Shown: piece after piece, positions 4,634 through 31,900 of the stretch
Position numbering within the stretch: position 1 is the first letter of the stretch
Layout of the letters: each line of letters begins with the position of its first letter
Source of the DNA: Ostrinia nubilalis
Taxonomy: Eukaryota > Arthropoda > Insecta > Lepidoptera > Crambidae
Assembly: GCF_963855985.1 (NCBI RefSeq)
Contig: NC_087100.1
Span: 8,281,001 to 8,345,000, forward strand
DNA: 64,000 nt
Direction of reading: 5' to 3'
The notes under the pieces: generated by a model
Database searches by the model: none
What the model was told of the DNA's origin: nothing
What the model saw: the letters and a program-made list of their open reading frames with translations, nothing else
Position numbers and translations under genes: made by a program

Positions 4634-7600
4634 TTAATGTAAGGCAGTAAGTAGGTTAGTAATATTGCCGATAGTGGTGGTAGCCGGCGGGAGGGTAGGC
4701 AGAGGCGGCGTGGGGTATATTCGGCGGCACGGCGACACCGCCTGCGGCCCTAGCATGCTGAGGAGCAGGTATGACACTAACGAACCTGACAGCAGCCCGC
4801 CGTTGTAGGATAACGTCATCATGTTACCTGAAACAAAGGACAATCATAAGGTCGTTAATGGTCATGTACTTTTTTTAAGTTGCCTGAAGACACTGAGAGG
4901 TAAATAAGTGGTTAATCATGATCATTCATGCATAATCATGTATTTCCTCCGCCATTTTCTGCAGTTTGGCACCTCACGTCACACATCATTTTACCGAAGT
5001 CAGCCCTATGGCTTCGGCGCAGTACCGATCACTGACGTTTGTCAACAAAATGGTGCTCGACCCTTGAGACAAGCTAAATTACACCATATTGTTAATGACA
5101 TTGAGCATATTTTTTTTTAAATACCTTCGCGAAGTAAACGTTCTGTAGGTACATAGTACTTATTATTATTCTGTGCCATTAGGAAAGGGATCCACCCGGA
5201 TCGTCTTTCGCGAGCTGTCATCGCCTTTCGCGCGCTGTCAACCGCGAGGCGAGGTGTTTATGTCCAACGATTTTGAAACATCAAGTGGCAAAAATTAAAA
5301 ACTAACAACCCGTATTGATAGTAGCGCCCTCCATAAAATGTCATAATCTTGTCAGAAGGTACCGCTTGGGTAAAGAAATTTCTCCAGTGTTGCCGTGCTT
5401 TGGGAGACTTGGAATGGTTGTTCAATGTGGCAAAAATCGGAACTAATAATCCAGAATTTTGTTGTTAATAGCTCCACATGCGCCATTTATGATACTAATC
5501 GCAAGCACGATGCTTCATATTCACTTACCAGCAATTTCTCGGTGCTCTCTGCCCACTCGCGAAGGTGCCATTATCATCGGCACTGAGCCAAATAAGCCGT
5601 TACTGAAGCCCAACACTACGGAGAACATAATTGGGTAGACCTGTAACAAAAAAACGGGTTTATATACATTTAAATTGGTAAACAGTAAAATGTTATTGTA
5701 GTAAAATTTAAAGTTGTTCCTTTAATAGAGATTCTTATTATTTTATTAAACAAATCATTTTTGAGAGAGTCTATTCTAAAACATTTTAGTTGTGGTAGAG
5801 TCGAAATTTTGTTCACATTAACCCTTTATTTTGCAGAAGACCACGAAGAAAATCGATTTAGTCTAAGGAGATGCAAACTGAAGTGCCAATTGACTGCTCG
5901 CTTGTCGCAAAACTGATAACCATTGGGGTCGATGTACTCTTAAGTGGAATCAGCGTCTCAGCAAGCGTAGAGTAGGATGCGCTCTTCAGTTAGGAGGAGG
6001 AGCGATATAATTATAAGCACAATAAAATACATGAACATAATGAGTATAAGGATGTATACTTATTTATTTACAGTTGATCACAATTATTATCGAATAATGT
6101 ATTTGTGCAAAAGTCAGGGCTTGAAATTGAAAAGCCTTTAGTCAGAAATATTATTTGATTAACATATTATTATAAGTTTGTTACAAAAACGGTCGTTAAT
6201 GTCCTACGTTATCTACGGAATCAACTTAGCGCAATAATTTTTGCGACATTCATAATTTTGAGATTCGGGTAATCGTCCTACTTCACCCTTCGTCGTTCGC
6301 CTGTTGGAAACGTGTAGGCAACGGTTGGAAAATAAATCTAAGAGGAGGATAGAAACGTAGTTTGCTGGAAGTGTGTAGAAAACGGTTTTGATAATGTATT
6401 ATCAAAACCGCTGTTGTTAATAAAAAATTACTGGGAAAAGCTTATTTTAATAAAGTGACGTACATTCGGTACATTGTTCAAATTGTACCTAATCATATCT
6501 CTGTGCAATTTACGTCTCCAACGATATGCGGGGAGTGCCTCGGGGCTGCGCACAGCAGTAACAAAGGTACCAGCAACAGTCGAACCCCGCTGGCCATCAG
6601 CAGCTGGCTGCGGCTCCACTCGTACGGCCACGCCGCTGCTAAATTACATTCTCACAAACTTTTGCGTGTATAATATTAGTAGGATTACTAAAGTGTGCGA
6701 CTTACGTCTCCAACGATATGCGGGGAGTGCCTTGGAGCTGCGCACAGCAGCAGTAAAGGTACTAACAGCAGCCGCACGCCGCTGGCCATCAGCAGCTGGC
6801 TGCGGCTCCACTCGTACGGCCACGCCGCTGCTATCATTACGTCCTCACAAACTTTTGCGTGTATAATATTTGTAGAATTACTAAAGTGTGCGACTTACGT
6901 CTCCAACGATATGCGGGGAGTGCTTCGGGGCTGCGCACAGCAGTAACAAAGGTACCAACAGCAGCCGCACGCCGCTAGCCATCAGCAGCTGGCTGCGGCT
7001 CCACTCGTACGGCCACGCCGCTGCTGTCATTACATCCTCACACACTTGCGTATATAATATTTGTAGGATTACTAAAGTTTGCTACTTACGTCTCCAACGA
7101 TATGCGGGGAGTGCCTCGGAGCTGCGCACAGCAGTAACAAAGGTACCAACAGCAGCCGCACGCCGCTGGCCATTAGCAGCTGGCTGCGGCTCCACTCGTA
7201 CGGCCACGCCGCTGCTATCATTACATCCTCACAATTGCGTGTATAATTGTAGGATTACTAAAGTGTGCAATTTACGTCTCCAACGATATGCGGGGAGTGC
7301 CTTGGGGCTGCGCACAGCAGTAACAAAGGTACCAACAGCAGCCGCACGCCGCTGGCCATCAGCAGCTGGCTGCGGCTCCACTCGTACGGCCACGCCGCTG
7401 CTATCATTACATCCTCACAAACTTTTGCGTGTATAATATTTGTAGGATTACTAAAGTGTGCGACTTACGTCTCCGACGATATGCAGGGAGTGCCTCGAAG
7501 CTGCGCACAGCAGTAACAAAGGTACCAACAGCAGCCGCACGCTGCTGCTATCAGCAGCTGGCTGCGGCTCCACTCGTATGGCCACGCCGCTGCTATCATT

Positions 7601-10600
7601 ACATCCTCACAACTTTTGCGTGTATATTTGTAGGATTAGTAAAGTGTGCGACTTACGTCTCCAACGATATGCGGGGAGTGCCTCGGAGCCGCGCACAGCA
7701 GCAGTAAAGGTACCAACAGCAGGCGCACGCCGCTGGCCATCAGCAGCTGGCTGCGGCTCCACTCGTACGGCCACGCCGCTGCTATCATTACATCCTCACA
7801 CACTTTTGCGTGTATAATATTTGTAGGATTACTAAAGTGCGACTTACGTCTCCAACTATATGCGGGGAGTGCCTCGGAGCTGCGCACAGCAGTAACAAAG
7901 GTACCAGCAACAGTCGAACCCCGCTGGCCATCAGCAGCTGGCTGCGGCTCCATTCGTACGGCCACGCCGCTGCTATCATTACATCCTAACAACTTTTGCG
8001 TGTATATTTGTAGGATTACTAAAGTGTGCTACTTACGTCTCCGACGATATGCAGGGAGTGCCTCGAAGCTGCGCACAGCAGTACCAAAGGTACCAACAGC
8101 AGCCGCATGCCGCTGGCCATCAGCAGCTGGCTGCGGCTCCACTCGTACGGCCACGCCGCTGCTATCATTACGTCCTCACAAACTTTTGCGTGTATAATAT
8201 TTGTAGGATTACTAAAGTGTGCGACTTACGTCTCCAACGATATGCGGGGAGTGCTTCGGGGCTGCGCACAGCAGTAAAAAAGGTACCAACAGCAGCCGCA
8301 CGCCGCTGGCCATCAGCAGCTGGCTGCGGCTCCACTCGTACGGCCACGCCGCTGCTATCATTACATCCTAACAACTTTTGCGTGTATAATTGTAGGATTA
8401 ATAAAGTGTGTCACTTACGTCTCCAACGATGTGCGGGGAATGCCTCGGAGCTGCGCACAGCAGCAGTAAAGGTACCAACAGTAGCCGCACGCCGCTGGCC
8501 ATCAGCAGCTGGCTGCGGCTCCACTCGTACGGCCACGCCGTTGCTATCATTACATCCTCACAAACTTTTGCGTGTATAATAATTGTAGGATAACTTAAGT
8601 GTGCTACTTACATCTCCAACGATATGCGGGGAGTGCCTTGGGGCTGCGCACAGCAGTAACAAGGGTACTAACAGCAGCCGCACGCCGCTGGCCATCAGCA
8701 GCTGGCTGCGGCTCCACTCGTACGGCCACGCCGCTGCTATCATTACATCCTCACACACTTTTGCATGTATAATATTTGTAGGATTACTAAAGTGTGCGAC
8801 TTACGTCTCCAACGATATGCGGGGAGTGCCTTGGAGCTGCGCACAGCAGCAGTAAAGGTACTAACAGCAGCCGCACGCCGCTGGCCATCAGCAGCTGGCT
8901 GCGGCTCCACTCGTACGGCCACGCCGCTGCTATCATTACGTCCTCACAAACTTTTGCGTGTATAATATTTGTAGGATTACTAAAGTGTGCGACTTACGTC
9001 TCCAACGATATGCGGGGAGTGCTTCGGGGCTGCGCACAGCAGTAAAAAAGGTACCAACAGCAGCCGCACGCCGCTGGCCATCAGCAGCTGGCTGCGGCTC
9101 CACTCGTACGGCCACGCCGCTGCTATCATTACGTCCTCACAAACTTTTGCGTGTATAATATTTGTAGGATTACTAAAGTGTGCGACTTACGTCTCCAACG
9201 ATATGCGGGGAGTGCTTCGGGGCTGCGCACAGCAGTAAAAAAGGTACCAACAGCAGCCGCACGCCGCTGGCCATCAGCAGCTGGCTGCGGCTCCACTCGT
9301 ACGGCCACGCTGATGCTATCATTACATCCTCACACACTTTTGCGTGTATATTTGTAGGTTTACTAAAGTTTGCGACTTACGTCTCCAACGATATGCGGGG
9401 AGTGCCTTGAAGCTGCGCACAGCAGCAGTAAAGGTACTAACAGCAGCCGCACGCCGCTGGCCATCAGCAGCTGGCTGCGGCTCCACTCGTACGGCCACGC
9501 CGCTGCTATCATTACGTCCTCACAAACTTTTGCGTGTATAATATTTGTAGGATTACTAAAGTGTGCGACTTACGTCTCCAACGATATGCGGGGAGTGCCT
9601 CGGGGCTGCGCACAGCAGCAGCAAAGGTACTAACAGTAGCCGCACGCCGCTGGCCATCAGCAGCTGGCTGCGGCTCCACTCGTACGGCCACGCTGCTGCT
9701 ATCTGAACCGAAAAACAAAACAATTGACTGCTATAATACAATGTTTATGAAGAACGAATGTCATTTGTTTATTCTAGTTTGTTTTATCTTTGCATTTTAT
9801 GGGATTGCGTGTTATGTTCCTGACTATTCCCACCTCTCATTCCCACCACTGCAACTCCTATGTAGCCAGGATTTACAGCATGTTATGTAGGCTTATCCAC
9901 TCTGTTCACTATTTAGATGCGGGTCTAAAGCCACAATAAGATAACAAGTTGAGCAATATGTAATTGAAGCTAAGCTAAGCTGACATTACAAAAAAAAACT
10001 GGTCCTTAGTAAGTTCTTTTAAGCACAGCAAAGTTGCTGGAATGCTCTGAGTTGAATATAGAGATTCTTACACTTGATAAATCTCTTAATGTAAGTACAT
10101 AGTTACATTGATTACCTTTTTGAAACATTAAAAGCATTCATACAACTCACCTTCCCAATAAAGTCGAACAGATTGAACGCCGACATGAGTATAATCGGCA
10201 TCCAGGATCCGAGCCGGCAGGACGGCACTTCAGACGCGATGCCGGGGTACAGGCTCAGCGTCGTGAAGTACACCAGCCCGATGGACACCATGTAAGGGTA
10301 GATGGCCCGCGCCACCGCCCATCTGGCCAGCACGCCGCCTGCGGGTGAGACACGTGGTGACTAGCTTAGTGTGAGTTTATATCAAACGTCGGAAAAAAAT
10401 AAATTAAAAAAAGTAGCTCACTTAGGGTCAAATGGGCGAACTTGTATACTTAAAATAACCTTACTTATACACCCACAAAGTTTGTCTAACCTCCCGCCAA
10501 ACACCCTGTATATGAAGATTTTAGTTCTTGAAAGTTTCCGCTAGGGGTGCTGTACAATCCGTCATACATTTAATGTCACTTTTTTACGCAGTCGACATCG

Positions 10601-13600
10601 AATGAATTTGACTTAAACTCACTCTACGCTCCTAGTTCAGTGATTGTTTAATGTACAAAGCAGTGAAATGATCCTGACAACTGACACAAATGACATCAGT
10701 GACACACGTGTAGCCAGTGTCAGGGTGAGACTGATAGTACCTATATGTACAGGGTAAACGAGTGAAGTACACCAGCCCGATGGACACCATGTAAGGGTAG
10801 ATGGCGCGCGCCACCGCCCATGTGGCCAGCACGCCGCCTACGGGTGTAAGGTAGATACTTTAACCAACAAAAAATACCCCCCTGTCCTCGTCCCACCGAG
10901 TAAAAGGTTTGCAAAGCTGAATGCGCTAGATTCCGTAGCTATACTAGGCGATGTGATGCTCCCAGAATGAATTCGAAATTCAAAGCATTATTAGAACCAG
11001 CTTGTTGCAAACCAGTTTTGGGTATCTAGAATCTAAAATACTAACGATGTTGTTACCTACTCAGGCGTTTTACCTCTGCTCTGCTAAGATCAGCGCGGAT
11101 GAACGATTTATCTATGTTGCTGAGTATCTAACCAAGTTGGGCTAATAATGCTCAGATAAAAACAGAAATAAAGCTTGAGCTATCTTACGCTTGAATGCCC
11201 TCCAGGAGGTGAGTCTCTCGGGCGCGCGGCGGCTCGAACACGAAGCGACGTCCTCCACCTTATAGCAGGGCCGCGGCGTACACAGGGTTCCCGAAGTTAA
11301 ATGTACTTGATTCCGTAATCCGTTGCTATAGAGCCTGCACCCTCTTCGCCTATACTATAGGGGAAGTGTTACAGGGTGTTACCAGCCTACCAGCTAAACG
11401 AATTCGAATTTTGAGTTTTGGAGCATCACATTAGAATCAGCCGCTTTGGGTACCTATGATCTAAGAAAAAAGGCAGAAATAAAGGCTACATTCTCACGTT
11501 TGAAAGCCCTCCAGGAGGTGGGTCTTTCGGGCGGCTCGAACACGACGTCCTCGACCTTGTAGGAGGGCCGCGGCGTGCGCAGCGCGGGCGGCGAGCTTGG
11601 AGCCGGCGACTGCGCGCCCGCCGCGCCCGTCGGAGAATACACCGGGTTCGCGAAGCTGAATGAGCTAGATAACGTAGCTATAGGCGAGATGGGTGTGATC
11701 CAGCATATTGAATTCAAATTTCGGAGCATACTATTAGAATCAGCAGCTTTGGGCACCTATATTCTAAGGAAAAGGCTAAGACAATAGTGGGTCTCTCACG
11801 TTTGAAAGCCCTCCAGGAGGTGGGTCTTTCGGGCGGCTCGAACACGACGTCCTCGACCTTGTAGGAGGGCCGCGGCGTGCGCAGCGCGGGCGGCGAGCTT
11901 GGAGCCGGCGACTGCGCGCCCGCCGCGCCCGTCGGAGAATACACAGGGTTGGCGAAGCTGAAGGCGCTGCCTTCTGTCTCAGCTGAAAAAATAGCATAGT
12001 CTGGTTAAGGTATTTAGGCCCGATTCGACCAAAATTTTATCCGAGAATAACTTCTGGTATAACTGGCACACCGACAGTTTCAGTATGGGAAATATGTCAA
12101 AACTGGCGATTTATTCTGAGATTAATATTAGTCTTGTTTGGTCGAATCCACCCTTAGCATATTATGGAACGAAGCTCAAATATTAATTTTCCTTCACATT
12201 TGTCACTTATTGGTTTGTGTTCTTTAAATGCACGTACCTACCAATAGAACACCGTGGCTAAGAAGGTGGTAGGTAATAACAGTAGGTTCATTACACCTAC
12301 CTTGTCCATTTGTCGACAATGCTGGACTTTGCAGTTTCAGAACCCCGTAGCTTCCTTCACCAGCTTCACTTTCCATCTGAAAAACAACAGTGTAAAATGA
12401 ATATTTTCGAAACCTTATAAGACACAAAGCTAAAGTAGGTAATAATTATGTTATAAGATTTCAGATCACGATTTTTTTCAGACAGACAGAGACAGATCAA
12501 TTACTATTATGTAGGCACAATTTAAGTATGCTTCATTGCTTCGCGACATAGCGATCATTGGCTAATGGATCCAATTAAATAATTTTAATTAGTCAAGGTC
12601 CCCGAGTCCCGAGCGTCGTATTACGGATGATATCGAATAACTTACGGAAGGAGTAGCTATTACACATTTCAATCTAATACTAATATTTTAAATACTAAAG
12701 TCTATGTTTCTGCCTGTCTAATTAATCTGATTTAAATGAAATTTGATATAAAGAATGATACCTAGTCTGAGACCCTGGGAAGAATTTTACATAAGTAAAT
12801 TATCGCGTATTCAATTATAAGGCGATATGGAAACATATTTTTTAAGAGGGACACGCGCGCTAAAGTTTTTCTGTAACAGCCTAAACTCTACAAGTATGTA
12901 CTTAGTGCAGGAAGAGCGCATAAACGAGTAAGTTTCTGCGGTAGTAGAGCGGGAGGGGTGTGCGAAACTTCAGATGTGTATATAGGTACATAAGGTAAAC
13001 GGCTACTAGTTCGTGATAGTACGTAAGTTCGTAAGTTTTTTTTCTAGCTCAAATAATAAGCAAATGGAATATTATTTCTAAAAACTATTCATTACTACAA
13101 AATCTCTATTATTTAAGCTATCTAAAAAACCAAGTACCAACATTGTGGCGCCAAAAATGAGAGCAATACGAAGCTTCAAACTCTCAGAGAGCCAAAAAAA
13201 TCCGTGCGGCTTGCAAAGGTTGCTCTCACCGTAAGGTTAGCGCTCCAACTTCTTAAGCTTATAAAAAGGCGAAGGAACGTCCATTTAAATAAAACTTGTA
13301 ATAGTGGTTTCATGTGTTCCTTGACAATTGATTTGGCTTAGAAAAAAGTTATATGAAAACGTAGAATTCCTTTAAAATTGCGATTAATTGACTCACGAAA
13401 TAGCGTACATTTTATTTTTCGGGTGTCCCCTATTTCGTGATACTACCGATTCAAGGATATTATGGATAACATTTTGATGCTTGGTTTTTAAATAATTATT
13501 TATGATAATTTAAATGTAAGTTATGAAACAAATAATGCATTTATTTAAGTTTCTCATGACCTAAATTCGGTATATGTTTCGTTCACTAGAATTTATATGA

Positions 13601-16600
13601 CACGAGTCTGAAGTTCACATAAATGACCAATTTTAAGATAAATTAGCATAAGTAGTACCAGCATAATTTTGGTTTTATTTCGATTTATTTTATTTATCTT
13701 TGTTTATTTGTATTGTATATGGGATAGATAATAGTTAACTGACACATTTTGACAATAATCCATGAATTTTACTTGGGGAATTTGGAATAATCAGTACCTA
13801 TCACGAAACAAGGAACCGTATTATTGTTACTTTTTTCCAAGTTCGTGATATATAAATGTATGGTGTTAGGTACTTTTATGACACATACCATCAAAGAAAT
13901 CGACATATTTTTTAGTTTTTAATACTGACCTACCTAAGAAATTAATTAATTACTTACTTTTTATTATGAGTCATTGGCGTATCTGGGGTTATTTTCAGGG
14001 GGGGGGGGGGGCTACCCTCACTTGAAACAGCTCCAGGGGTGGGAATATGGGGAGAAGGGGGGGAGGGGGTTAGTCCCCCCTTCCTCCCCATAATCCCACC
14101 CCTGGCATCTAATGGCTTGTGTAAATATTTTCACATACTTATCGTTACAAATAACCAAATCAAAATTTTATGGGTACGAAGAGGGGGCGGGGGGGTAAGG
14201 CCCCCCACATTTCTATTGGTTAAATAAATATTTTCACATATCGCCAGAAATAACAAATCAAAATTTTATGGGTACGAAGGGGGGGGGGGTAAGTTTCTCC
14301 CCCCCCCCCACATTTCTAATGGTTATATAAATATTTTTACATATTGTTAGAATTAACAAATCAAAATATTATACGTAGGTACGTACCTAGCTAGACTCAC
14401 ATTATTTCTTATTAATATTTCAGGTAAGTAATATCGTCAATTTCACATAATAATAATTTTAAAATTATTAAACCCTTAATCATTATTAAAATATCCTAAC
14501 TGGATGCATAAAACCTTATCCCGAAATAGGGGACATGAGTTCACGAACTTAGAAACAGAGCAAAATTTTGTCACGAAACAGGATCCAAACAAGAGGTCCA
14601 CAGAACAATTAATATAAAAAAAAGTTCAAACTATATAACTATAAATTATGTATTAACTTACTGTCAAAAGACCAAAGTTTAGCATAAAAAAGTTTTCATA
14701 CTGATATCATGCTTGGTTATTTTTAAATAAAATGTTAAAGTCGTAAGAGCCTTAATATACCGAAGTAGGGGGCACTTACCTTACCGTAACAATTTATTAT
14801 TATGTCATTCCCTCCGCACCGCATGATAGGAACTTACTTATTCAGTTAACACTTCGGTGGACAGTACAAGTTAAGAATTACTTCCCAAATATCACTACTT
14901 ATGTCATGAGTGTCAATGTAAAACGAGTAAAAACTATGATGTCTATAGGCGTTCTGTCGTATCATCCTTTACTACCTGAACGCCCGTGGACTATACTGTC
15001 CATCAATGTGTGAACCTGTAAGTTACTGTACCAGAGTAGCGTCTTCAAGTCTTCTCAAGTAGTACTGTACCAGCGGGTGTCTCATCACCACGTGGTGCAG
15101 AATGGAGTGCCCCAGCAGTATCAGTATGGAGAACACTGCTGAGGCTGACGGAATCCGTATATGGGAAGGTACTAGTAGTTAAACGCATAACTGAGTAGCC
15201 TGCAGTAGTGAGAGAGGGGTGTGATTTTCTTACGTCACATGTCACTTCTCCCGCATCGCTCCAAAACCGAAGTAACCTACTGAGATATGAATACTATGAA
15301 TACCTGTAGTAGTTAATATAGCGTACCAGAGTAGCGTCTTCAGTAGGGTTGAGGTGCAGCTGAATGCGCCGCTTGTGCCGCGACTCATTCGTCAGCCTCA
15401 AGTAGTACTGCACCAGAGGGTGTCTCATCATCACGTGGTGCAGCATGGAGTGCCCCAGCAGTATCAGTATGGAGAACACGAAGAACATAAACGTGCTGCG
15501 GCGAGGCTGACGGAACCCGTATTTGGTCAGGATTCGGTCGAGGGACACCCAGAATCCCGCGGCGCCTAGAGATAAATTGCACGCAGTTTGTACGTTATGT
15601 GATTTGTTAAGTTAGTACCTACTGGTTCAAGTGGTCGATTTAAAAAATAACAATCTCCTATGGAGTTTTAAATAGCTTGAATAATAAAATTAAATGGAGT
15701 CATGAAAGTAGGTAATTTTATTTTAGTAAAGAGAATTTTATAACGCTGTGAAAACTCAACGCGTCTCTACCATAAATTTTGTATGGACTAAGAGAAATAT
15801 CTTATGACGCAGCTAGTTTCGTACCTACTCAATTTTGTTATTTCAAAATTACTCAAAATCGAATTTACGGCATATTGAAAGGTATAACTCTTTTTTGGGA
15901 AAACAATTTTTTTAAAGTTGTGTCTTGGAATACAATTGGCTAACTCAAAATGGACAAAAAAAGTAAATAATAATTAACTTACTCTCTCCAGCCATCACCG
16001 CCTGCGTATACCGAGGCGGCAGGCACCCCGTGAACCCATAATACGAGGCCTGTTGCACCGTACAGCCGAAAGCCACCACTCCAATGGCGACCAAGTTGAT
16101 GGTGTACGAGACCTTCGTCGAGAACCCGTCCCAGCCGATGTTGCAGACCGCTACGAATAGCATTGTCGCTAACGATACTAGGATACCTGTAAATAACATG
16201 TTTTACTGTGAGTTCTTTACGAGATCGAATCAGAAATGAGGAGATCCGTAATCGAACTACAGTTGCTGACATAGCCCGACGGATTAGCAAGCTGAAGTGG
16301 CAATGGGCAGAGCACATAGTACGCAGCTGACGGCAGCAAGGTTCTGGAATGGAGGCCGCGTACCCGAAAACGCAGCGTGAGACGTCCAACAAGGTGGCCT
16401 GACGACATCATTAAGGTAGCAGGGAAGCGCTGGACGCCGGCCGCTCAACATGGAAAACATTGGAGGAGGCCTATGTTCAGCAGTGGACGTCCTATGGCTG
16501 AATGATGATTGTAAGTAGGTACGCCTACAAGTACCTACTCGCAGATCGAGACACAATAGAAATCAATTGTTGCTGTGGCCTCATGCGACCGCTTAGGGTT

Positions 16601-17780
16601 CGATTAGACACACGTCTAATTTTACTTACTTTATGAAAGCAAGAATATAGGCAGGTTAAGTTTATGATTTTTCCTGAAATATCGCATCCACCTATAAATT
16701 ATGTGTATTATTTAGTTTAGTGAACAACACGACGTATCAACGACATCTTGAATGTTTCCCGTTCGGTAGAAAATGTGTTGATTTTTAATATGCATTTAAG
16801 GATGAAAAGGAACTATTTGCACCCTAAAATTAAAAAAATGTAGAGACAAACCATGGAAAGAGTTGGTCTGGGATGATGCTCCTAATTATATTCATTGTAT
16901 GAGTTATCGACATTTTTCAATTAATTCACACGTGTTTATCACGTAATAATTTAATTGGATTGGACGTGATCTTTTGTCTGTCCAATTACCTACCTACAAT
17001 GCGATTCTAGCAAAAATCGTGTGTATATCCTCGTTCATACCACGGTATTCATACTACGTACGTTAAACTGAACTCTACAAAGGACCGGCACCATCCTCTT
17101 TTCTTTTTTTCCTTTATAGTTTCGTGCGGTTTGCATTATGGCCACTGGCTAGTGTTAAAAAGAATTGTATTTGTAGAGTGTTTTTCTTTTGTTTCTCAAA
17201 TAAAATACGATAATATTCGTTTGTTTCTCTCACTTACCAAATGTGATCCTAGTGTTGTAGGTAAACAGGTCTAGCAGCAGATTGTTGGCGACGACGGCCA
17301 CACACGCTGACGCGATGTATACCGTCGACATGTCGAACATGATGGTAGTGTTGGGGTAGTGGTGCTGGAAGTAGTCCACTGCCATGATGAAGCTGGAAAA
17401 ATTAAGAAAAATAGGTGATTGATACGCACTTAATTATTTATGTATTTTTTCTTTTATTTGATTCAAGGCGGATACTTTCTTATTCTTTAAAATTACGAAA
17501 ATCTATCATTAACACAAGTTCAACGTTGTTTGTGATGCTATGTTAAGCATTTTCAAGAAAAACTCACGAAGGTAGAGCCGCTTTAAATTTCAATAAAAAA
17601 GTTTACAGACCTGTTAAAAGGCAGTAAGAAGGCTGCGCCGGCGACGAAGAGAGTCACATAAACGGAGTTGTATCTATCCGGGGGCGGAGCGCTAGGCTCC
17701 GTCATCGGAGCAAGGGGCTCCCCGCGCGCTGCCCGAATCGCCTCGATGCGGGCGTACCCGCGCCCTAGAGTCTCGTTCAT
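4634..17780 (-). CDS. SLC29A4 (ENT4-like): Equilibrative nucleoside transporter 4-like protein (ENT4/PMAT type)
   Basis: This is a multi-pass membrane transporter. ENT4 relatives move monoamines, organic cations and adenosine across the plasma membrane. Exons on the minus strand: 17611-17780, 17238-17392, 15983-16186, 15304-15565, 12301-12368 (acceptor uncertain), 11800-11982, 10151-10338, 9574-9702, 5529-5640, 4634-4827. They sum to 1665 nt (554 aa), close to the family's ~530. Hallmarks in order: FLLPFNSFIMAVDYF in helix 1, a GWDGFSTKVSYTINL-type segment, a long cytoplasmic Pro/Ser/Ala-rich loop before helix 7, SAFNLFDFIGK, and GFSNGLFGSVPMIMAPSRV followed by REIAGNMMTLSYNGGLLSG. The weak point is exon 5. 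The strong TTTTTCAG acceptor at 12377 is out of frame with exon 4. An AAAG acceptor 8 nt further in restores the frame, or a small exon was missed. Four exons have extra copies. Family assignment is firm; exact splicing of the loop and the repeated exon is not. Confidence 0.88.
6514..9702 (-). repeat. Seventeen-copy tandem array of ENT4 exon 8
   Basis: Copies end at the exon/donor boundary at 6514, 6706, 6899, 7090, 7276, 7469, 7657, 7848, 8037, 8230, 8419, 8612, 8805, 8998, 9191, 9381 and 9574, a period of 186-193 bp. Each holds 129 nt encoding about 43 residues (IAAAWPYEWSRSQLL ... HSPHIVGD), which continue the DFIGK motif of the preceding exon in frame. All 17 keep GT at the donor, mostly GTAAGT. 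Sixteen keep the frame open; the copy ending at 7469 has a 1-nt deletion near 7550. The copy at 9574-9702 has a pyrimidine-rich acceptor (TTTTTCGGTTCAG). Others have only TGTGAG or TTAG nine bases before the exon, which would add Asp-Val-Met in frame after a ~55-nt intron. The copy at 6514 has an in-frame TAG there. The plus-strand ORFs across this region are artefacts of the repeat. Confidence 0.92.
10762..10846 (-). pseudogene. Partial decayed copy of ENT4 exon 7
   Basis: On the minus strand it reads GVLATWAVARAIYPYMVSIG, nearly the same as the start of the real exon 7 at 10151-10338, with a TAG acceptor still in place. The match stops after 'VYFT', so the 3' half and donor are missing. It sits between the real exon and the multiplied loop exon, and is best read as a truncated tandem duplicate. 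Confidence 0.8.
10895..11990 (-). repeat. Tandem duplication of ENT4 loop exon 6 (three exon copies plus a fragment)
   Basis: A unit of about 300-330 bp (exon plus flanking intron) is repeated. Copy a (exon 11800-11982) has intact splice sites and is in frame with its neighbours. Copy b (11498-11664) encodes the same FSFANPVYSPTGAAGAQSP peptide with an intact donor, but its changed acceptor (ATCTAG) puts it in another entry phase. Copy c (about 11195-11300) has a deletion and an in-frame stop, with donor GTAAGA retained. A fourth partial unit at about 10895-11050 has only the intron-side sequence. The copies code for the cytoplasmic loop before helix 7. Confidence 0.85.
13400..14390. repeat. 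Intronic repeat region with G-run tandem units
   Basis: This lies in the ENT4 intron between exons 5 and 4. From about 14100 to 14390 a unit of about 120 bp ('caaatcaaaattttatgggt', then a G run, a C run and 'acatttctaatggtt') repeats about three times. G runs of 8 or more also occur at 13999-14011. The phrase 'tcccctatttcgtgatac' near 13425 and its inverted relative near 14520 may mark old transposon ends. Confidence 0.55.
15024..15165 (-). pseudogene. Decayed duplicate of ENT4 exon 4
   Basis: Nucleotide identity with exon 4 (15304-15565) is high over 'cagtatcagtatggagaaca' and the following HSMLHHVMMRHPLVQYYL-coding stretch. There is an internal deletion after that stretch and frame-breaking changes (GAAGACTTGAAGACGC...). 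It sits directly downstream of the real exon, as expected for a tandem duplication that has decayed. Confidence 0.8.
16212..16515 (+). mobile_element. 3' fragment of an RTE-type non-LTR retrotransposon
   Basis: It encodes a decayed version of the reverse-transcriptase C-terminus (RRISKLKWQWA...H, then RRPTRWPDDI). It ends at 'tatgttcagcagtggacgtc', 'ctatggctg' and 'aatgatgat'. Frameshifts are visible compared with the copy at 19416-19718. It is inserted in the ENT4 intron between exons 2 and 3, on the opposite strand to the gene. Confidence 0.75.
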
Positions 17781-22298: not shown

Positions 22299-25200
22299 CT
22301 AAAATCTTGGTTCAAAATTAATTTTAAAAGGTTTCGCTGATAGAGTAAGGCCATCTACGGGTTCGATTGAAGGCATCGATTCTCCAGGAGGTAGTTTTAA
22401 ATTGAACCTTTGCAGAATATGGGTCAAGAACATGAACAGCTCCGATCGGGCCAAACCTTCGCCGATACATCGTCTCTTACCTAAAAAGGGAAAATACACT
22501 GAAGAAATAATAATTGATTTTATGTGCATAGGATGAAAATGAATATGAATTCATGTCATGAGTAACTAATATCCCTACCACAATCCCTACGTCTTAGATG
22601 ACAAATATTCGAGTAAATATTACCATTCATTGTTAAACAAATAAAATAAAATAAATAAATAAATAAATTCACAAAACGAATGACAGAGCAGCCCAATTTG
22701 ATACAGACATTTTTGAGTGATTGAAAATAATTGAAAATAAATAGCAATTCTACCGTAAACAAGGCCCGTTAGAAAATCCACGTGTATCTAAATAAAAATA
22801 TAGTGAAGGTAGATAAATATTACAATAAGTTTGTTTCTTACCAGCACCAAACGGCATGAACCACTCGTCCTGCATGAGGTTCCCTTCCTTCGTAAGAAAC
22901 CGTTCTGGCTGGAACACTTCGGGGTCCTTCCAATGGCTGCCGTGGTGGAGGTCATGTAGAGCCAGCAGAACGAAAGTGCCCTGAAAATAACTGCGACTTA
23001 TGCCCGTTTTCACCAACCAAGCCACCAACCACCAACCGTCCCTAACTTTTAAGTGAACAAAATTCCTGTTATGTGTTTCTTACTTAAAAAATAGGGATTG
23101 ATGGTGAAAACGGCATTATTCTCATATACGCAAAAAAATAATGATAACTAGTAACTTGTTTGTTAATATTTACATTAAATATAACTCGCATTATTAATAT
23201 AATTCTTATTTAAAATGCATGTTCTTACTTAAAAGGCCAAGGGCCTACGTACCTGTTTGTGTTTTAAGCGCTAAATGCAGATTTAAATATAAATGTTTAG
23301 TTAATTTGCAAGCGGTAAATAAACTTGTGCGTATTACAAGTTTATAACAAAATCTCCGAATTAAAACATAATTTTCGTTGCGTGGATCTACAATATTTAT
23401 GTACCACATTTTTTTGCAAAACAAAAAGTCAGTTAACATTTTTCGTTAGCTTCATCATACTATAGCTATTTTTAGTGTAGGTACGTAAGTCGCATTTCAA
23501 TATCTGGAAAAATCGAACTTTCTAAGCAGCTCAGATGGTATGAGCGAACAGTACCCGGCAAGCGAAGTTCGTGGGTTCGATTCCCACTTTAGGCATATCA
23601 TTTAAATTTTCATATCTCTTTAGCTAATCCACTTACATCACAATAATAATTGCATGGAAAATTTATTTTTACCTTGGGTATAATGTAGTCGCCAAGCTTT
23701 GCTTCCGCCAACGCCATGTGCGGTATACCAACGGGCGCGATGCTCGCCATTCGCAAAGATTCCATTATCACAGCTTCGGCGTATACCATTCTGTAAATAT
23801 TTGCTATAATTGTTTAATGGACTTAATGATATAAAGCGAAAATTAATATCATGAAGATAGCACAGAAAGTTTTTCATTATGTAAACGTGTCATATAACGT
23901 AAACAATCGAAGTTGTTTTGTTTGTTTAACGTTACGAATAACGCCTACCTATAGGTATTTTTGTATTTATTTTTATGTTTACGAACAATAAATTACGGAT
24001 ACGGAAAGTAATAAAACTTTGATAAAGGCGACCTAAATAGGTTATGCACTTTCTTTGTGCATTATCAAAAACTCGTAAATAAATTAACGTTTAATTAGTC
24101 AAGTATTTAATTTTATAAGTATTTTGCTCAGTCATAAGTACTAATATTATAATGCGAAAGTAACAGACTGTCCGTCTGTCTGAATTACACAATAATTTTC
24201 ATGAATCTTTGGTAGAAGACGAATTGGACCTTGGCGAAGTAAAAGTAACATTAGGACCTACGGCTGAAATGAAATCCTGAAAAACTTTATTAAATTAGTT
24301 TTTAATTACCTTTTTCTGTCGCTTAGCGCCGGAGCCCTATTCTTGCCAACCACCTCGTCAATCTCGTTCTGCAATCGTATCTGAATAGCATCGTTGTGAA
24401 TCAGGTAGAGAAGCATAAACACAGCTGTATTGTTCACCGTCTCTACGCCAGCCTCTAACATGTCTAAACATACCACTTGCAGATCTTCTTCACCTAATAA
24501 AGTATCAATAAATTCATCGTCAAAAGGAACAAGCGATTAAAGGACATGTGTAGTTATTTTGTATGTTACACAATCAATTTATTTTATTTTTAAAATTAAT
24601 GGTACCTCTTTACTTACAAAACGTTTCACTTTTATTGTGCATTTCTATTAAAAAGGCATCGATCACGTCTCTAGGGTTAGTTAAGTCCAGGCTTTCCTTG
24701 TGTTCATCTATAATTTCCTGAAAATAAGTTTTCTTTTAAGGCTTGGTATTTCTGCTAAAGTAGGTATTTCGCGCTGTCAAAATCTGCGCGCGCAATTCTT
24801 CGCCGAAGACAGCGCGCCAAAGAGCTCCCGCCACAATTTCCAGCTACATAGTATAGAAATACGCAGTTGGTTAGGTTAGGTCGACTTCCTTCCCTTCAAG
24901 CGTCACACTCACAACACTTTCTAATACAAATCATATCCAAGTGATACAAATTAAAACACCTTACAGACTTTTTGGGAATATATTCTAGAATCGAATAAAT
25001 ATGAAATATAACTGCAGAAGTAAACACGGTTCAAAGTGGCCGAGGCGTCGCCTGATCTTCTGGAAGTTCTGCGCCGGCTTAAAGAATTTCAAGATTACGT
25101 CACCCGACCTATCGGTAGGCCCTTGGAAGCTTGAGCGACTGGAAAAACATTTTATGATAAGTTACTCTTAGTAGCGATTATTTAGAGCTTGGATAATAAA

Positions 25201-28200
25201 TTATAGTTGTTGCAATTCACGAAGCTTTGCATGTGGTTAATAACATTAATCAGTACACGCATTAATTTTGTTCAGTCTCTTTGTTTATTAATAAATAAAA
25301 ATATCATACTAAAATTGCAGAAACATATTTGTTTGTATTGGTCTGGGTGTTTTCTTTCTATAATATGTATGACGTATGTACGGGGTTCTGTATCGAAAAT
25401 TACTATGAGCATCACACGCGGTTACCTGCTTACCTCTGTGCACTCATGGGAGTTTAAGCAGAGGTCCCTAGAGTTTGACTTTGAGCTTTGTTTATAGTCA
25501 TTACGAAGCAGACTGATGGGAAACTGCACTGTCTTGAATTCGAAAGGGCAATTTGACGGTGTTAGGGGAATTCTAGGAATAAATACAGAGTCTCCTCATT
25601 GAGATTGAGACATTTCAATTTTAGATTTCACTTGTCTTGACATTGAACACAATCTGACATGGAGTTTTCAAACACTTGTAAAAATAAAAAGTAATTAAAT
25701 CAAAGGCACTAAGTAGTATTGATATCAACTTCGAAGAAAATGACTGCCAAAATTACTTTCTACCCGTTCCACACGTCTTTCATGAATTATATTAAGGAAT
25801 TGTTAAGCTAAATTTCAAGTAGATTGAACCAAGGAATCACTTTGTCCCATACAAACTTTGCCCCCGTTTTTCACCCCCTTCATTTCATGACCCCATTTCG
25901 GAAAATCTTTTCTTATGAGATGCCTACGTCATACAAAGAACACACCTTCCAACTTTCAGGTCTCTACGATATCCGTCAGTCATTTAGGACAAAGCATTTT
26001 CATTAGTTGTCCAATACTCTATCGTTCCAGGTATGTCATTGACAGGAGGGCGCTACTATCTTAATGGGTTATTCATTAGTCCCAACTTTATGCCACTTGA
26101 CATTTCAGAATCGTTTGACTTTAGATACCTAAGTGATTTGATATTCGGAGTCTTTTAATGAAATCAAGTTCTGAAATAACTTGAGGTGTTGTACCCGATC
26201 AAGCTTTTCATCGCAGGACAGTTAAATGGTTTTATTATTAGTTTCTTCTCTAAGTCTTAATTTGTCAGAGTAGGTAAAGGCTCCATGAGAGCAAAATTTA
26301 GCATTATAATACAGTGTGAGTCACGTTAAAGTGTACATATGAAAATAGATGAAACTAGACCTATTTTTATCGACAAAAAAGAGGTCAAAAAATTTTTGAG
26401 ATTTTTTTTAAATTTTTTATAGAATTTTTTTTCTTCCAATTACTTATTGTAAAGAAAACGTAATAACTTTTAAACTAAGCGGTATATCCTGATAAAATAA
26501 AAACAGTAATAATGCTAAATAACAGGCGATACTAAAAAAATACATAAAATACACAAAAAATGGCAACAAATAATAAAAAATGAGAATTTTTGAAAAAAAT
26601 CTGCTTTAAAATTTGTGTTTTTTTGGTTATTTGATAAATTTCTCCAAAAAATGCCCCTATAACAGGTGGTTTTTATTACTTTGTATTATTCTCTATCGTA
26701 TTATCTTTGTAAAACCAAAAATCGCATGTCTCTATCCCTATCACAACATTTGCTATGATCGTTTGAACAAAGGCCTGCCACAACATTATTCTCCGCTACA
26801 GTTAGAGACAATTTTAATTTTAACTAAAAAGCTTATTTTACTTCGAAATCTTTTGTTTTTATTTGAAATCTAACTTGTCTTTATCAAAATAACAAATCTA
26901 GGGCCATTTTCAATTTCGTTGTTAACGAAGCGTTGAATGGCGCGCCCGGAGAGGCTTAGTTCAAACGATCATTGCAAACGTTGTGATAGGGATAGAGACA
27001 TGTGATTTTTGGTTTTACGAAGGTAATACGATAGAGAATAATACAAAGTAATAAAAACTACCGGTTATAGGGGCATTTTTTGGAGAAATTTATCAAATAA
27101 CAAAAAAAACACGAATTTTAAAGCAGATTTTTTTCAAAAAGTATCATTTTATATTATTTGTTGGCCTTTTTTGTGTATTTTATGTATTTTTTTAGTATCG
27201 CCTGTTATTTAGCATTATTACTGTTTTTAATTTATCAGGATATACCGCTTAGTTTAAAAGTTATTACGTTTTCTTTACAATAAGTAATAGGAAGAAAAAA
27301 AATTCTATAAAAAATTAAAAAAAAATCTCAAAAATTTTTTGACCTCTTTTTTGTCGATAAAAATAGGTCTAGTTTCATCTATTTTCATATGTACACTTTA
27401 ACGTGACTCACACTGTATAGTTTTTAATTTTTTTCTTGAAATATTTGACGCCTTGTAATCTCTCGTTAATATATAGGTTCACACAAATAAATAATGTTTG
27501 ACTTCGACTTTAATAATTATGCTCTTACATAATTATAAATAAACTAGGTTTCCGCCCGCTGCTTCGCCCGCGTGGAATTTTTCGGTTTTTATATATTCTA
27601 TTACACTCAGATATAATGTGGCTTTCTATCGGTGAAAGATTTTTTTAAAATCGGTTCAGTTGATCCCGAGATTACCCCTTACAATTTAACAAATATACAA
27701 ACACACAAACTTTACCTCTTTATAATATTAGATATAGATAGGTAATTTGAAACCCTATTTTGTTTTATTCTTTTTTTTATTTTAAATATTTCACAATCCA
27801 AACTAATATTTACTGTAAGTAAATGCTAAATAGTAAATATTAGTTTGGATTGTGAAATATCCTACTAATATTATAAAGGCGAAAGTTTGGGTGTCTAGAT
27901 GTCATGATGTCTGGATGTTTGTTACTCTTTCACGCAAAAACTACTGAACGGATTTTGTTGAAACTTCACAGTATTATTGTTTATAACCCAGATTAACATT
28001 ATGACGATATGTGGCAAGTAAATTTCAATAAATAAATAAGACGTGTCTAAAAAGCGCCATCTATCGTCATTGGTTAAAATCTACAGCACTGGACAAACTA
28101 CGGTATGACGTTCGTAAATATTCATTCGGGGGAAGCCGTGAAACGCCATCTATCAACAACGAAGTAAAACATCATATCTAACGGGGGTAAAACGAAGTCG

Positions 28201-31200
28201 CGGGCTGCCACTAGTTTATAATAGGTAGCTTTCCCTCCGCAACCTTATTGGTATTCCATGTATGTGTCTTTTAACTGATTTCTGTTAAACATTTCATGTA
28301 AAATTTGTCCAGTTATAACTCTATTTACATCTGCATCTGTAAGCAAGGATTCATGTTCTCCAGCCCAGATGCCGAGTACAGAATCGTCTTTCAGTGACGT
28401 GCAGCTGCCCCTATATTTGACCTAATTTTTATTATTTATTTGTGTCATTGTGCTCTTCTAAAGAGTGTAAGACGATTATATGTAGGTACTATAAAAATGT
28501 AATTTTAACTCATTGGTTTTGTCTCATATTTGAGGAATGTACATACTATGTATCATGAGTAGGGTCTTAGTTTAAAAGGATGCCAACGATTTAAATTTCA
28601 ATAGGTAGACAAAATTCATAATTCTTAATTATCAAAAATTTTAGCTTTCTCCAGTAACACTGATGTTATTATACTGTGACTCATCAAAGTCATAATTGTC
28701 AAAAATATTGACAAATCGCGAACTGTCACGACCAAAAAACTGACACGCGTCCGTCCTCCGTAAGCGCCACCGCGCGACTGATTGAGATTGTCCAAGCCGT
28801 CATGAGCGATTTTTTCCACATTTTTTAACATAGTAACTAAATAAGAGCCAATATAAAAATTTCATCCGTTAAAAGCCCTCAAGTTATTTCTGAACTTTAG
28901 TTTAGTAAAAGATTCAAAATCTCAAATCGCTTATTTAAAAAATAAAACCATAAATAGAAAACGAATAGAGGTAACTTTGGGAATTTATTCTATCGAGTCA
29001 ACTTCATCAAATCGTGTTTCCATCCGTTAATAGCCCTAGAAAATATCCTCAACTATGCCCAAATAAAATCTTAGCCTTTAATTTTACTGTTTAGTACCTC
29101 AAAAATGAAAAATGAAAACCTCATTTTCGCCATTTTCACTGCTACCCGGCCTTAAACAGATTTATTAGACTACTGAGATCGTATGCAGCTATCGGTGGAT
29201 TGTAGAAACCAGTTCAGTGGACATAAAAATAGCTTATATTTTGAGTAATAAAACCTGAGTTTAAAAATGCTACTAAGATAATAATATGGGCATAAAGAAA
29301 CAACAAAATGTTTATTTTTCTTATTGCATGCTACATATCAATCTGTCCAAGTAAAAACAAGATACAGGGTAACTAATTAAAAAAAAAAACAATAAAAAAC
29401 TGTAGCGACGTTTGGTAATTAATGTAAAGTTTAATTAGTGATTCTAAATGTGTTTTAAAATGCTGTTTGTTTTCTAACAATAAAAAAGAAATAAAAAAAG
29501 TCTTGCTCTTTATGTTTGAACTTTGAACATTGACTACATGTTACAAGTCACAACAAAAACGTAAAACTATTTTTTTAAGCCATTTTTTTAATTATTAATT
29601 TTAATATTAATTTAATACCAATCGATCAACGTGGAAAGCATTAGGGGAGGCCTATGTTCAGCAGTGGACGTCCTATGGCTGAAATGATGATGATGATGAT
29701 GAATATTAATTAAATATTTTACACGACATTCGTTTGTTTGCGTCTCATCTCTATCATGACACTGAGAAGATGCCGACCAAAAGCAAAACAGTATAAATAT
29801 TATTTTCAATATTATGTAATTTATGTCGAGATTTCACGGTCATATTGGACGCAAAGATATTATTAAGCTTAACTGCTATCTTATCTGCACGGATACATAA
29901 CTAATTATATCTCGATGGTTTGACGCAGATTCAGATTTAGAGAAGCAATGTTATTTGTGTTGTTTTTTACGCAGATGATTATTAGAATTATAAAACAATA
30001 ACATCTATACAGTCGCAAGATATTTTTATATTGATTCATATTTAGAAATAAAAAAGATCATTTTGCACCTTTTTAAGCCAAAAATACTTTAAGACTTGAA
30101 CTCTATCCGAACGAAGTCACGGGCGTGCATGATATATCTTTAGGTAGGTACCAGTTATCTGTTCATTTAGTTCGTATGACAGTTTTAGGTGAAGTACACC
30201 TTGAATTGATCATTTGCATGAGGATTGAATTGATTAAAATAATATAAAGCCGAAGTAAGTATATTTGCAAAGTCAGATGAGTGTTTTTAAAAATGTAATA
30301 ACTTAGATAACCCTGTACGCGTCATTATTTGAGAAAAATAGGTTATAACCTTGGTGTTTTATTATTGTCTGAATTATCGCTACATATCTTAGTTCCTTGT
30401 TGTTCAATAACTCACTCTTAGAAACTGGTGAAGAGCCCGATGCACTGCGGTCATTTCGGTGTACCCTATGAAGTCTGGAATGACGTGCCTCAGGTAAGGC
30501 ATAGAAGTTAACACTCCACCGCTCATATCCGCCACTTTGAAACACCGATTGATCAAATCACAGAGGTTTTTGAGACGTTCATCATCGAGTTCGTATCTAA
30601 AAAAGATAGTAATTAATTAATATGACTGCATTTTGTTTTTACAGTGTTACACGCACTATAAGCGTGTTTAAATTATTGTTATGCAGATAATAACACTCAG
30701 TTTAACGTGGTTTAATCATGTTCTACATAAGATATACATGACTACAGAAACCATAGCTTAAGCTCGGCTTAGTTTCCTGGTTCGATTTTGGAACCCAATT
30801 TAGAACATGATTTGTTCCAAGTTGGTTTGGGTCTAGATGTGCATTTATGCATGTACAGAAGAAACTAATACACATTTAGCAAATTATAGTGGGTATGTTC
30901 CTTCTTAAGCATCCTGTGAAAGTCATCACGTTACATTTAATGAATAAAAATGAAATCAACTAAAATAGTGGATAGGAAACAAAAATATTCTCTTACCTTT
31001 TCCCCGCTACAAACCGCCATACGATATTGATGATGGAAATGTCAAACATGCCATTGACTAGAACTGGTGCGCGGATTTTTTGTAGCCTATCCACTAGAGT
31101 TTGACATTCTTCGGCGATATGGAGTTCCATCTGTCTGGAGCCGTAGCCGAAGCCTTTCAGGAACTTCAGCGCTACTCGTCTGGTTTTACTCCAGGATGAG

Positions 31201-31900
31201 CCGTCATTGAAAACAATACCTGGAGGTTTCAGTGATAATAAGGTGTTTACGTTTACCAAGTTATACAAGTAATAAACGTAGGTGCGACAAAATTTTAATC
31301 TGAAGTGGGATAATTGGACATCTACAATTTTTCAGTTACTTAGTTCGTAAAAATAATAAGCAGTCGAGCTTTTCTTTTCATAACTAGAGAACGGTCAGAT
31401 TTGCTACGAATTTTGTTATGCCTTTTATATCATTACTACGAGAAATAAGAAAATCTATGTATAAGCAATAAATAGTTACTAGGTAGGTACTCACCAAGTT
31501 TTTTCCCAAAAGACCGCATCGTGTACAAAAAGCCGTCGGGCCGTCCGTCAAATACATCTCGCGCTATGACATCCTTGATCAAATCTTTGCCAAACACAAC
31601 CACGACGTTTACGACGCCAAGTCTTAGACCCAGCAAGTTCCCGTAACGGTGAGACCAAGACTTCCACACGCTATGGTGATATTTCACTTTCTTTAACTCA
31701 AATAAAACCGACAAAAGATTACCTACAATTGGCAGTATTTTAGGTCCTAAAAAAGAAAACTTAGCATTTAGTTCACTATGAAACATCGTGTAAAATAATG
31801 TTAATTTTTAATATTAACCTGGGGGGTATAAGTTTGGTCTATTCACTCTTATATTTAAGAAAAAATAAATCAAAATTATTACAACGATTATTGCCCACAT
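22299..31900 (-). CDS. Cytochrome P450, clan 2 (microsomal), complete
   Basis: This is a haem monooxygenase anchored in the ER by an N-terminal helix ([14 protein letters not shown]), followed by the PPGPK proline hinge. Exons: 31819-31900, 31495-31746, 30997-31219, 30416-30596, 24618-24717, 24310-24493, 23673-23790, 22842-22980, 22299-22480. All junctions are GT-AG and phases agree, giving 486 aa, the usual size. Motifs: oxygen-binding AGVET (294-298), E351-S-L-R354 (K helix), PERF (405-408), and haem loop FGAGKRRCIG with Cys431. Nothing essential is missing. By overall style it is clan 2, perhaps near the CYP15/CYP305 group that includes methyl farnesoate epoxidases; I cannot fix the subfamily without alignment. 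Intron 4 is 5.7 kb because a TTAA-flanked element with nested repeats sits in it. Confidence 0.93.
23520..23597 (+). other. tRNA-like sequence (SINE head or tRNA pseudogene)
   Basis: There is a D-arm-like CAGCTCAGATGGTATGAGC and a perfect T-arm GTGGGTTCGATTCCCAC, so both internal polymerase III boxes are present. The acceptor stem pairs imperfectly and no normal anticodon stem forms. It lies in the P450 intron between exons 7 and 8 on the opposite strand. I read it as tRNA-derived rather than a working tRNA gene. Confidence 0.6.
25740..26070 (+). repeat. Dispersed repeat, probable retrotransposon 3' UTR
   Basis: Text such as 'gcccccgtttttcaccccct' and 'ggagggcgctactatctta' resembles a non-LTR 3' untranslated region. 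Its tail recurs in inverted orientation near 5275-5345 in the ENT4 gene. The family is not determined. Confidence 0.45.
26312..27415. mobile_element. Foldback mariner-like element (long inverted repeat)
   Basis: Each end is CAGTGTGAGTCACGTTAAAG or its complement, flanked by TA (26310-26311, 27416-27417). The arms are unusually long: the left arm to about 26770 pairs with the right arm from about 26970, leaving about 200 bp of loop. No transposase is present. It is nested inside TTAA-flanked copy A in P450 intron 4. Confidence 0.8.
27541..28225. mobile_element. Clustered short dispersed repeats
   Basis: 27541-27735 is a relative of the repeat at 1526-1771 (CCGCCCGCTGCTTCGCCCGC... 'ataatattag'). 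27865-28220 is a repeat of the same broad kind in the other orientation, ending near 'cgaagtcgcgggctgccact'. Between them, 27788-27862 is a near-perfect hairpin ('cacaatccaaactaatattt' pairing with its complement). Confidence 0.55.
28625..28831 (-). other. Small ORF conserved in the TTAA-flanked elements
   Basis: It encodes a 68-residue peptide beginning [20 protein letters not shown]. Almost the same peptide is encoded at 44134-44325 and 63619-63810. I recognise no domain. Preservation may simply reflect recent copying of the element. Confidence 0.35.
29617..29701 (+). mobile_element. RTE-type retrotransposon tail
   Basis: The last ~85 bp of the same retrotransposon ('tatgttcagcagtggacgtc', then (GAT)n). 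It is flanked by near-identical 'aatattaatttaat' / 'aatattaattaaat' target duplications, in P450 intron 4. Confidence 0.8.

Follow-up and report, generated by a model that had tools for sequence, protein, structure and literature searches.

Seventeen copies of one exon in ENT4

We analysed a 64,000-nt window of the Ostrinia nubilalis genome (assembly GCF_963855985.1, contig NC_087100.1, positions 8,281,001 to 8,345,000), in which the minus strand between 17780 and 4637 carries ten exons of a gene that is a predicted ENT4 (SLC29A4) nucleoside transporter. Exon 8 of this gene is 129 nt long, is in phase 0 at both ends and is present in 17 head-to-tail copies on the same strand at 6514–9702, with all 16 extra copies located between exon 8 itself and exon 9. 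A preliminary description of this DNA had claimed 17 tandem copies of a 129-bp exon in an ENT4-like transporter, and both the number and the position were confirmed; Tandem Repeats Finder agreed, reporting an array at 6502–9703 with a period of 193, 16.7 copies, 92% matches and a score of 5403. The phase of the exon, also claimed earlier, followed from the splice model, and the joining of ten exons through the first copy alone gave the annotated O. nubilalis ENT4 protein over 549/549 amino acids with 100% identity. The nucleoside transporter domain PF01733 was found in this protein with an E value of 4e-38 and 132 bits against a cut-off of 29.8.

The coding part of exon 1, with the start codon, lies at 17611–17780 and is followed on the minus strand by exon 2 (17238–17392), exon 3 (15983–16186), exon 4 (15327–15565), exon 5 (12301–12376), exon 6 (11800–11982) and exon 7 (10151–10338), which is spliced to exon 8. 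Past the array come exon 9 (5529–5640) and the coding part of exon 10 (4637–4827), which runs to the last codons. An AlphaFold2 model built from 48 sequences had a mean predicted local distance difference test (pLDDT) score of 80.3, with the ten-residue blocks over 401–450 at 91–96, and its fold matched human ENT1 (6ob6_A) with a template modelling score of 0.89 by target. The residues of exon 8 (406–448) form in this model the end of one helix and a complete helix (416–437) with loops. Thus, the repeated hydrophobic segment of the preliminary description corresponds to one predicted helix.

The copies were numbered c1 to c17 along the minus strand, c1 (9574–9702) being the copy that serves as exon 8 in the annotated protein and c17 (6514–6642) the last. 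Each unit consists of the exon (128 nt in c12), a donor and a spacer, and the 16 spacers measure 57–64 nt. As claimed earlier, a donor follows every copy (17/17), with the sequence GTAAGT in 15 and GTAAAT in c13 and c17, and the 43-codon frame is open in 16 of the 17, the exception being c12 (7469–7596), which is broken by the loss of one base. The c1 peptide is encoded exactly by 7/16 extra copies, namely c5 (8805–8933), c6 (8612–8740), c10 (7848–7976, with 13 silent differences), c11 (7657–7785), c13 (7276–7404), c14 (7090–7218) and c16 (6706–6834). Eight others are open and differ from c1 by 1–4 residues. Proline 439, invariant in the 48-protein alignment, is changed to serine in c2 (9381–9509) and is lost among the four amino-acid changes of c9 (8037–8165). 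Ala to Ser, Leu to Phe and Arg to Lys are found in c3 (9191–9319), and the last two of these changes in c4 (8998–9126) and c8 (8230–8358), whose units are identical. The remaining three are c7 (8419–8547, Ala to Thr), c15 (6899–7027, Ile to Thr and Arg to Lys) and c17 (Ile to Leu). Many copies carry private differences. In addition, c10 and c17 share silent changes that are closely clustered at exon positions 57–70 and absent from their neighbours, a pattern that looks like the copying of an exon tract from an older lineage.

When the genome was searched (495,445,069 bases in 52 sequences), all eight of the candidates scored for the full unit were located at the ENT4 locus and none elsewhere, which ruled out a genome-wide satellite. 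No match to a known structured RNA was obtained in the window at the Rfam gathering score.

Acceptors, spacers and origin of the array

A normal acceptor (TTTTTCGGTTCAG) precedes c1 only, c1 being the sole copy with one (ttttcggttcag), and is missing from 16/17 copies. Similarity between the copies begins at the first exon base and does not extend into the upstream intron, which makes it probable that a normal acceptor was never present at the extra copies. The preliminary description had noticed an AG nine bases before most internal copies; it lies there in 15/16 extra copies (c2–c16), and in c17 it lies 8 nt upstream and out of frame. The context of this AG is TGAG at 14/16 extra copies and TTAG before c8 and c10. 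The introns implied after c1–c15 are 48–55 nt long, and the use of the −9 acceptor would add Asp-Val-Met to each included copy. Joining through it is in frame and open for 14/16 extra copies because the AG of c17 is out of frame and c12 is frame-broken; the earlier proposal that any number of copies could be included in frame therefore stands for these 14 and fails for c12 and c17. The substitution of c2, c5 or c16 for c1 in the splice gave open proteins of 552 amino acids, and the joining of c1–c11 and c13–c16 together gave an open protein of 1193 amino acids. The c1 frame read into its own spacer meets a stop after five codons (open reading frame 9559–9744). An ATG is also present directly 5′ of internal copies, which as a start would encode the last helices only.

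The first spacer (9510–9573, minus strand) is typical of all 16. It contains the donor and about 20 nt of donor-side intron, then about 40–44 nt that resemble the 5′ end of a Helitron and carry the weak AG acceptor, a feature that the preliminary description had overlooked. This second part matches the beginning of an element that is dispersed in the genome: when the unit was arranged with the spacer first, its seven further matches in the genome began at unit positions 16–21 and ended at 57–66. For a related element of about 200 bp, 40 of the 1239 genome candidates were scored; all 40 begin at query positions 1–3, and 39/40 end at positions 196–200. Among 12 genomic copies of it that were read, TCC is at the start in 12/12 with A before it in 8/12, and the end is GCTA in 9/12 and CTAG, after a GC-rich stem-like stretch, in 5/12. 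The element start in the spacers reads A/TCCTAC and thus has the 5′-TC terminus of Helitrons; the 3′ hairpin and CTRR end of Helitrons were not found in the spacers, which carry the 5′ end only. The unique intron 3′ of c17 is free of the Helitron-like piece, so the element end occurs only between copies. Elsewhere in the window, a Hel-2-like Helitron at about 1520–1757 (near 1753, minus strand) shows the TCC start, (CTGT)n, a 3′ hairpin and CTAG/T.

Hel-2 Helitrons, including OnHel-2 of O. nubilalis, have been described with such traits (PMC4344730). The spacer element is like the lepidopteran non-autonomous Hel-2 elements of that description in its 5′-TCC start, its dispersal in the genome and the 3′ hairpin and CTAG of the related full elements, and differs in that each spacer keeps merely the first 40–44 nt or so (PMC4344730). 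We call it Hel-2-like only, because the comparison with OnHel-2 was one of traits and because half of the 12 copies are without a clean CTRR end.

The array may have begun with an early duplication of the exon with the Helitron-like end at the junction, which would have produced an exon–element fusion, and unequal exchange would then have enlarged it. We infer this origin from the arrangement of the units, from the identity of the c4 and c8 units and from the failure of 37/105 informative site pairs in c1–c16 in the four-gamete test, which is incompatible with an exchange-free tree. A rolling-circle origin is possible, although the unit is without a Helitron 3′ end.

The gene also contains partial duplicates adjoining their originals on the minus strand, at 10747–10846 for exon 7, at 11183–11285 and 11437–11666 for exon 6 and at 15054–15136 for exon 4, which the preliminary account of the gene had missed. 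Both the exon 4 and the exon 7 duplicate are truncated. In the more diverged duplicate of exon 6, a 5-nt and a 7-nt insertion shift the frame between them; 15/16 extra copies of exon 8 are unlike these. The partial duplicates point to a locus that readily undergoes local duplication.

Constraint among the copies and exon 8 in other species

The comparison of silent and replacement differences that the preliminary description had proposed as a check was carried out on the unit alignment of the 16 frame-open copies, with the same base changes placed at random in 20,000 trials. Only 10 of the 34 distinct exon changes are replacements, against 22.5 ± 2.7 expected, and none of the 20,000 simulations was as low, which excluded chance as the source of the bias. 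The other two sense frames showed no replacement deficit, and one antisense frame showed a weaker deficit (13/31 vs 21.2, P = 0.001), which perhaps reflects the codon positions of the sense strand. The deficit persisted when c1 was left out (10/34 replacements vs 22.6 expected) and when c1, c9, c10 and c17 were all left out (6/22 vs 14.3, P = 0.0002). The ratio of replacement to silent differences (pN/pS) was 0.11 overall.

Codons 19–28, a variable Leu tract, were removed in separate tests because the silent cluster there could represent imported tracts. Outside this tract, replacements numbered 7/19 against 12.75 expected (P = 0.005), and pN/pS was 0.17. Changes found in a single copy gave 7/18 replacements against 12.2 expected (P = 0.009; P = 0.017 in a simpler binomial test), and those outside the tract gave 5/14 against 9.8 (P = 0.006); the first three codons hold 4 of the 7 single-copy replacements. 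The distinct indels in c1–c16 were likewise unevenly distributed, with 1 in 129 exon columns against 6 in 64 spacer columns (P = 0.007), and the AT-rich spacer may slip more often than the exon.

The evolution of 17 units was simulated in one lineage with whole-unit conversion and a c1-donor bias of 0 to 0.9. Under selection on c1 alone, pN/pS was 0.67–0.77 at every bias tested, and it was 0.07–0.10 when 90% of replacements were rejected in the other copies too. The observed 0.11 is near the latter, which argues for use of the copies, and since the differences are mostly silent, reading of the extra copies probably takes place on at least some occasions. The annotated protein contains c1 alone, as in the earlier alternative that only 9574–9702 is used, and the silent-change bias among the copies gives indirect support to in-frame inclusion.

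Exon 8 in other species was followed in 144 fetched proteins, the ENT4 search listing the best 120 of its 291 matches; in this search and in one with a five-copy query, the candidates sharing most words were scored. Exon 8 was matched at least once in 141/144 proteins, twice in two and not at all in three (P0028, P0033 and P0038). The Operophtera brumata model (P0037) has two copies back to back, and in a mayfly protein (P0078) the second match belongs to a larger duplication. Isoform X3 of Trichoplusia ni (P0028) is without exactly the 43 residues of exon 8, and P0033 is without exons 7 and 8. These skipped and doubled cases are automatic gene models, and they suggest that the copy number of exon 8 in transcripts may vary across moths. 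More than two copies were found in none of the 73 proteins listed by the five-copy query, whose reach is limited to lengths of about 400 to 1280 amino acids.

Cytochrome P450 exons are present upstream of ENT4 at 22302–31807 on the minus strand, where PF00067 was detected with an E value below 0.001 in 4/5 pieces, two of them over the curated cut-off. A Leptidea sinapis gene model (P0045) joins P450 and ENT4 domains, which hints that this neighbourhood is conserved. In addition, two separate arrays at 42913–43937 and 63088–63409 have a tandem unit of about 170 bp in common.

Use or silence of the extra copies

We tentatively favour, at something less than an even chance, an explanation in which the annotated protein is made with c1 only, the extra copies are occasionally spliced in frame through the element-derived AG, and selection keeps them readable. 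Inclusion at a low level, either in addition to c1 or in its place, would supply this selection. Each added copy would lengthen the protein by 46 residues and a further membrane helix, and the orientation of the last two helices would be reversed whenever the number of added copies was odd. These proteins would probably be minor products that do not transport, and selection would act mainly against copies that break the frame or misfold.

Several observations weigh against occasional use. The pyrimidine share before the internal AGs is 0.41–0.53, compared with 0.47–0.82 at the nine normal ENT4 acceptors, and G is found at −3 at 14/16 internal acceptors. The implied introns of 48–55 nt are very short and near the lower limit in insects. 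The junction peptide VMIAA was found in 0/144 fetched proteins, and the cluster of the annotated ENT4 contains a single sequence. The Operophtera model with two copies is an automatic prediction on an 84-kb contig and contains other repeated stretches. In addition, the frame of c12 is broken, and the invariant proline is missing from c2 and c9. The c17 copy, which cannot be joined in frame through its −8 AG, nevertheless differs from c1 by 10 silent changes and 1 replacement, so constraint there does not track usability. The replacement share among single-copy changes (39%) falls between the simulated 22–26% at 90% rejection and 58–62% at 50% rejection, which indicates that selection on single copies is weaker than pN/pS alone suggests. 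Furthermore, the copies diverge more at silent sites (0.17) than in their spacers (0.06), an excess that direct selection does not explain and that could be explained by exon tracts imported from other, long-separated functional alleles. The simulation contained neither a population nor allele import, and its silent divergence of 0.03–0.07 stays below the observed value.

Alternatively, the array may be silent, c1 alone being used and c2–c17 being spliced out with the intron, while exon tracts carrying mostly silent variation would be imported from functional exon 8 alleles, either c1 or other haplotypes. We consider this nearly as likely as occasional use. It agrees with the single normal acceptor and the annotated protein, with the exchange evident from the four-gamete test, with the excess of silent divergence and its focus on codons 19–28 (0.33 vs 0.10 outside), as imported tracts would give, and with the cluster common to c10 and c17 and the conservation of the latter. 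It is opposed by the simulated ratios under c1-only selection, whether conversion was random or c1-biased, in that model without allele import, and by the persistence of the bias outside the Leu tract and in single-copy changes. Occasional use therefore has only a slight edge over silence, because of the silent divergence above that of the spacers, the conserved c17, the single-copy replacement share and the simplicity of the simulation. The extra donors could alternatively act as decoys, competing for the splicing machinery and slowing or blocking the removal of intron 8, so that ENT4 output would be tuned through retention of the intron or through an exon that is read through into stops. The retention of all donors and the early stop behind c1 are consistent with this, and decoy exons with intron detention have been reported elsewhere, for example in OGT (PMC12017769). 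A donor decoy needs neither an open frame nor a bias towards silent changes, and we consider this improbable. A minor possibility is that the Helitron end and the splice-ready exon together form a self-multiplying cassette, in which the 5′ end of the element would amplify the exon, perhaps by one-ended rolling-circle copying, and would supply acceptors; the gene would then yield a population of proteins in which one helix is absent or occurs once, twice or more often, with selection on every copy to stay readable.

The remaining explanations are less probable still. The preliminary description had pointed to Dscam-type arrays, in which exon 7 would join one of the 17 copies according to tissue, and the phase-0 exon and the open frames with c2, c5 or c16 in place of c1 would permit it. 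The Drosophila Dscam arrays of exons 4, 6, 9 and 17 are also tandem homologous coding exons in one gene, but they are mutually exclusive, whereas the copies here are nearly identical and 16/17 are without a normal acceptor (PMC1397879). The ENT4 array has tandem homologous exons of the same phase with donors at 17/17 and normal acceptors at 1/17, and its extra copies either encode the c1 peptide (7/16), differ from it by 1–4 residues (8/16) or are frame-broken (c12). Since the copies encode almost one peptide, a choice among them would give almost no protein diversity; Dscam exon copies differ from one another. With no such isoform in the 144 fetched proteins, a repertoire of this kind is very improbable. 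Extremely improbable is a repeat protein with most or all copies in one messenger RNA and up to 14 extra helices. The open 1193-amino-acid splice and the Operophtera model would allow it, but it would have to pass a weak acceptor at each step, the fold would be disrupted, and the five-copy query listed no protein of this kind. Assemblies can give a wrong size to arrays of near-identical copies, which is the general ground for suspecting an artefact. The assembly ilOstNubi1.1 (495.50 Mb, 52 scaffolds) is reported to rest on HiFi data at 44-fold coverage with a consensus quality value of 68.8 and on 21.96 Gb in 1.50 million reads (PMC11851004), so that the mean read is several times as long as the 3.2-kb array. 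Together with the private differences in many copies, these figures make a collapsed or misassembled array, which the preliminary description had named as a possible refutation, just as hard to credit.

Other arrays resemble this one in part. Exon A of Drosophila Gr39a is likewise a repeated duplication of one exon in a gene for an insect membrane protein, with up to seven copies, some pseudogenised, and gene conversion considered; it has fewer copies, these are functionally divergent alternative exons, and the text compared describes no mobile-element spacer (PMC2204066). The kringle IV type 2 units of human LPA are also near-identical coding units with types defined by silent changes. Each LPA unit spans about 5.5 kb and contains two exons, and the number of units varies between people, whereas the ENT4 array is known from one assembly (PMC7613587). 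Compared with such a coding repeat, the annotated O. nubilalis ENT4 protein contains one unit only. The 90-bp leucine-rich repeat (LRR) exon arrays of Tetrahymena are head-to-tail exon–intron units in constant phase, as here; a mobile element lies nearby, and unequal crossing over has been proposed for them. They occur in many LRR genes, whereas here one transporter exon is involved and the mobile-element end is inside each unit (PMC6564038). Tandem exon duplication is thus known, and the near-identical, 17-copy, Helitron-spaced form looks like a new variant. No such array was found in titles and abstract openings on tandem exon duplication, Lepidoptera or insects, Helitron arrays and nucleoside transporters, a search with full texts, most subscription papers and bioRxiv outside its scope, and it returned no literature on exon duplication of nucleoside transporters in Lepidoptera.

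Tandem exon arrays are usually studied after their copies have diverged, and the 17 copies here are still almost alike. The array therefore lets one watch selection, gene conversion and splicing act on redundant exons, and it can test whether spacing and acceptor may both come from a mobile-element end. Should the extra copies prove unused, conversion imitates coding constraint in silent DNA, which would be a warning for inference from ratios of replacement to silent substitution (dN/dS). If they are used, one helix would vary in number in a transporter of O. nubilalis, which would be unusual.

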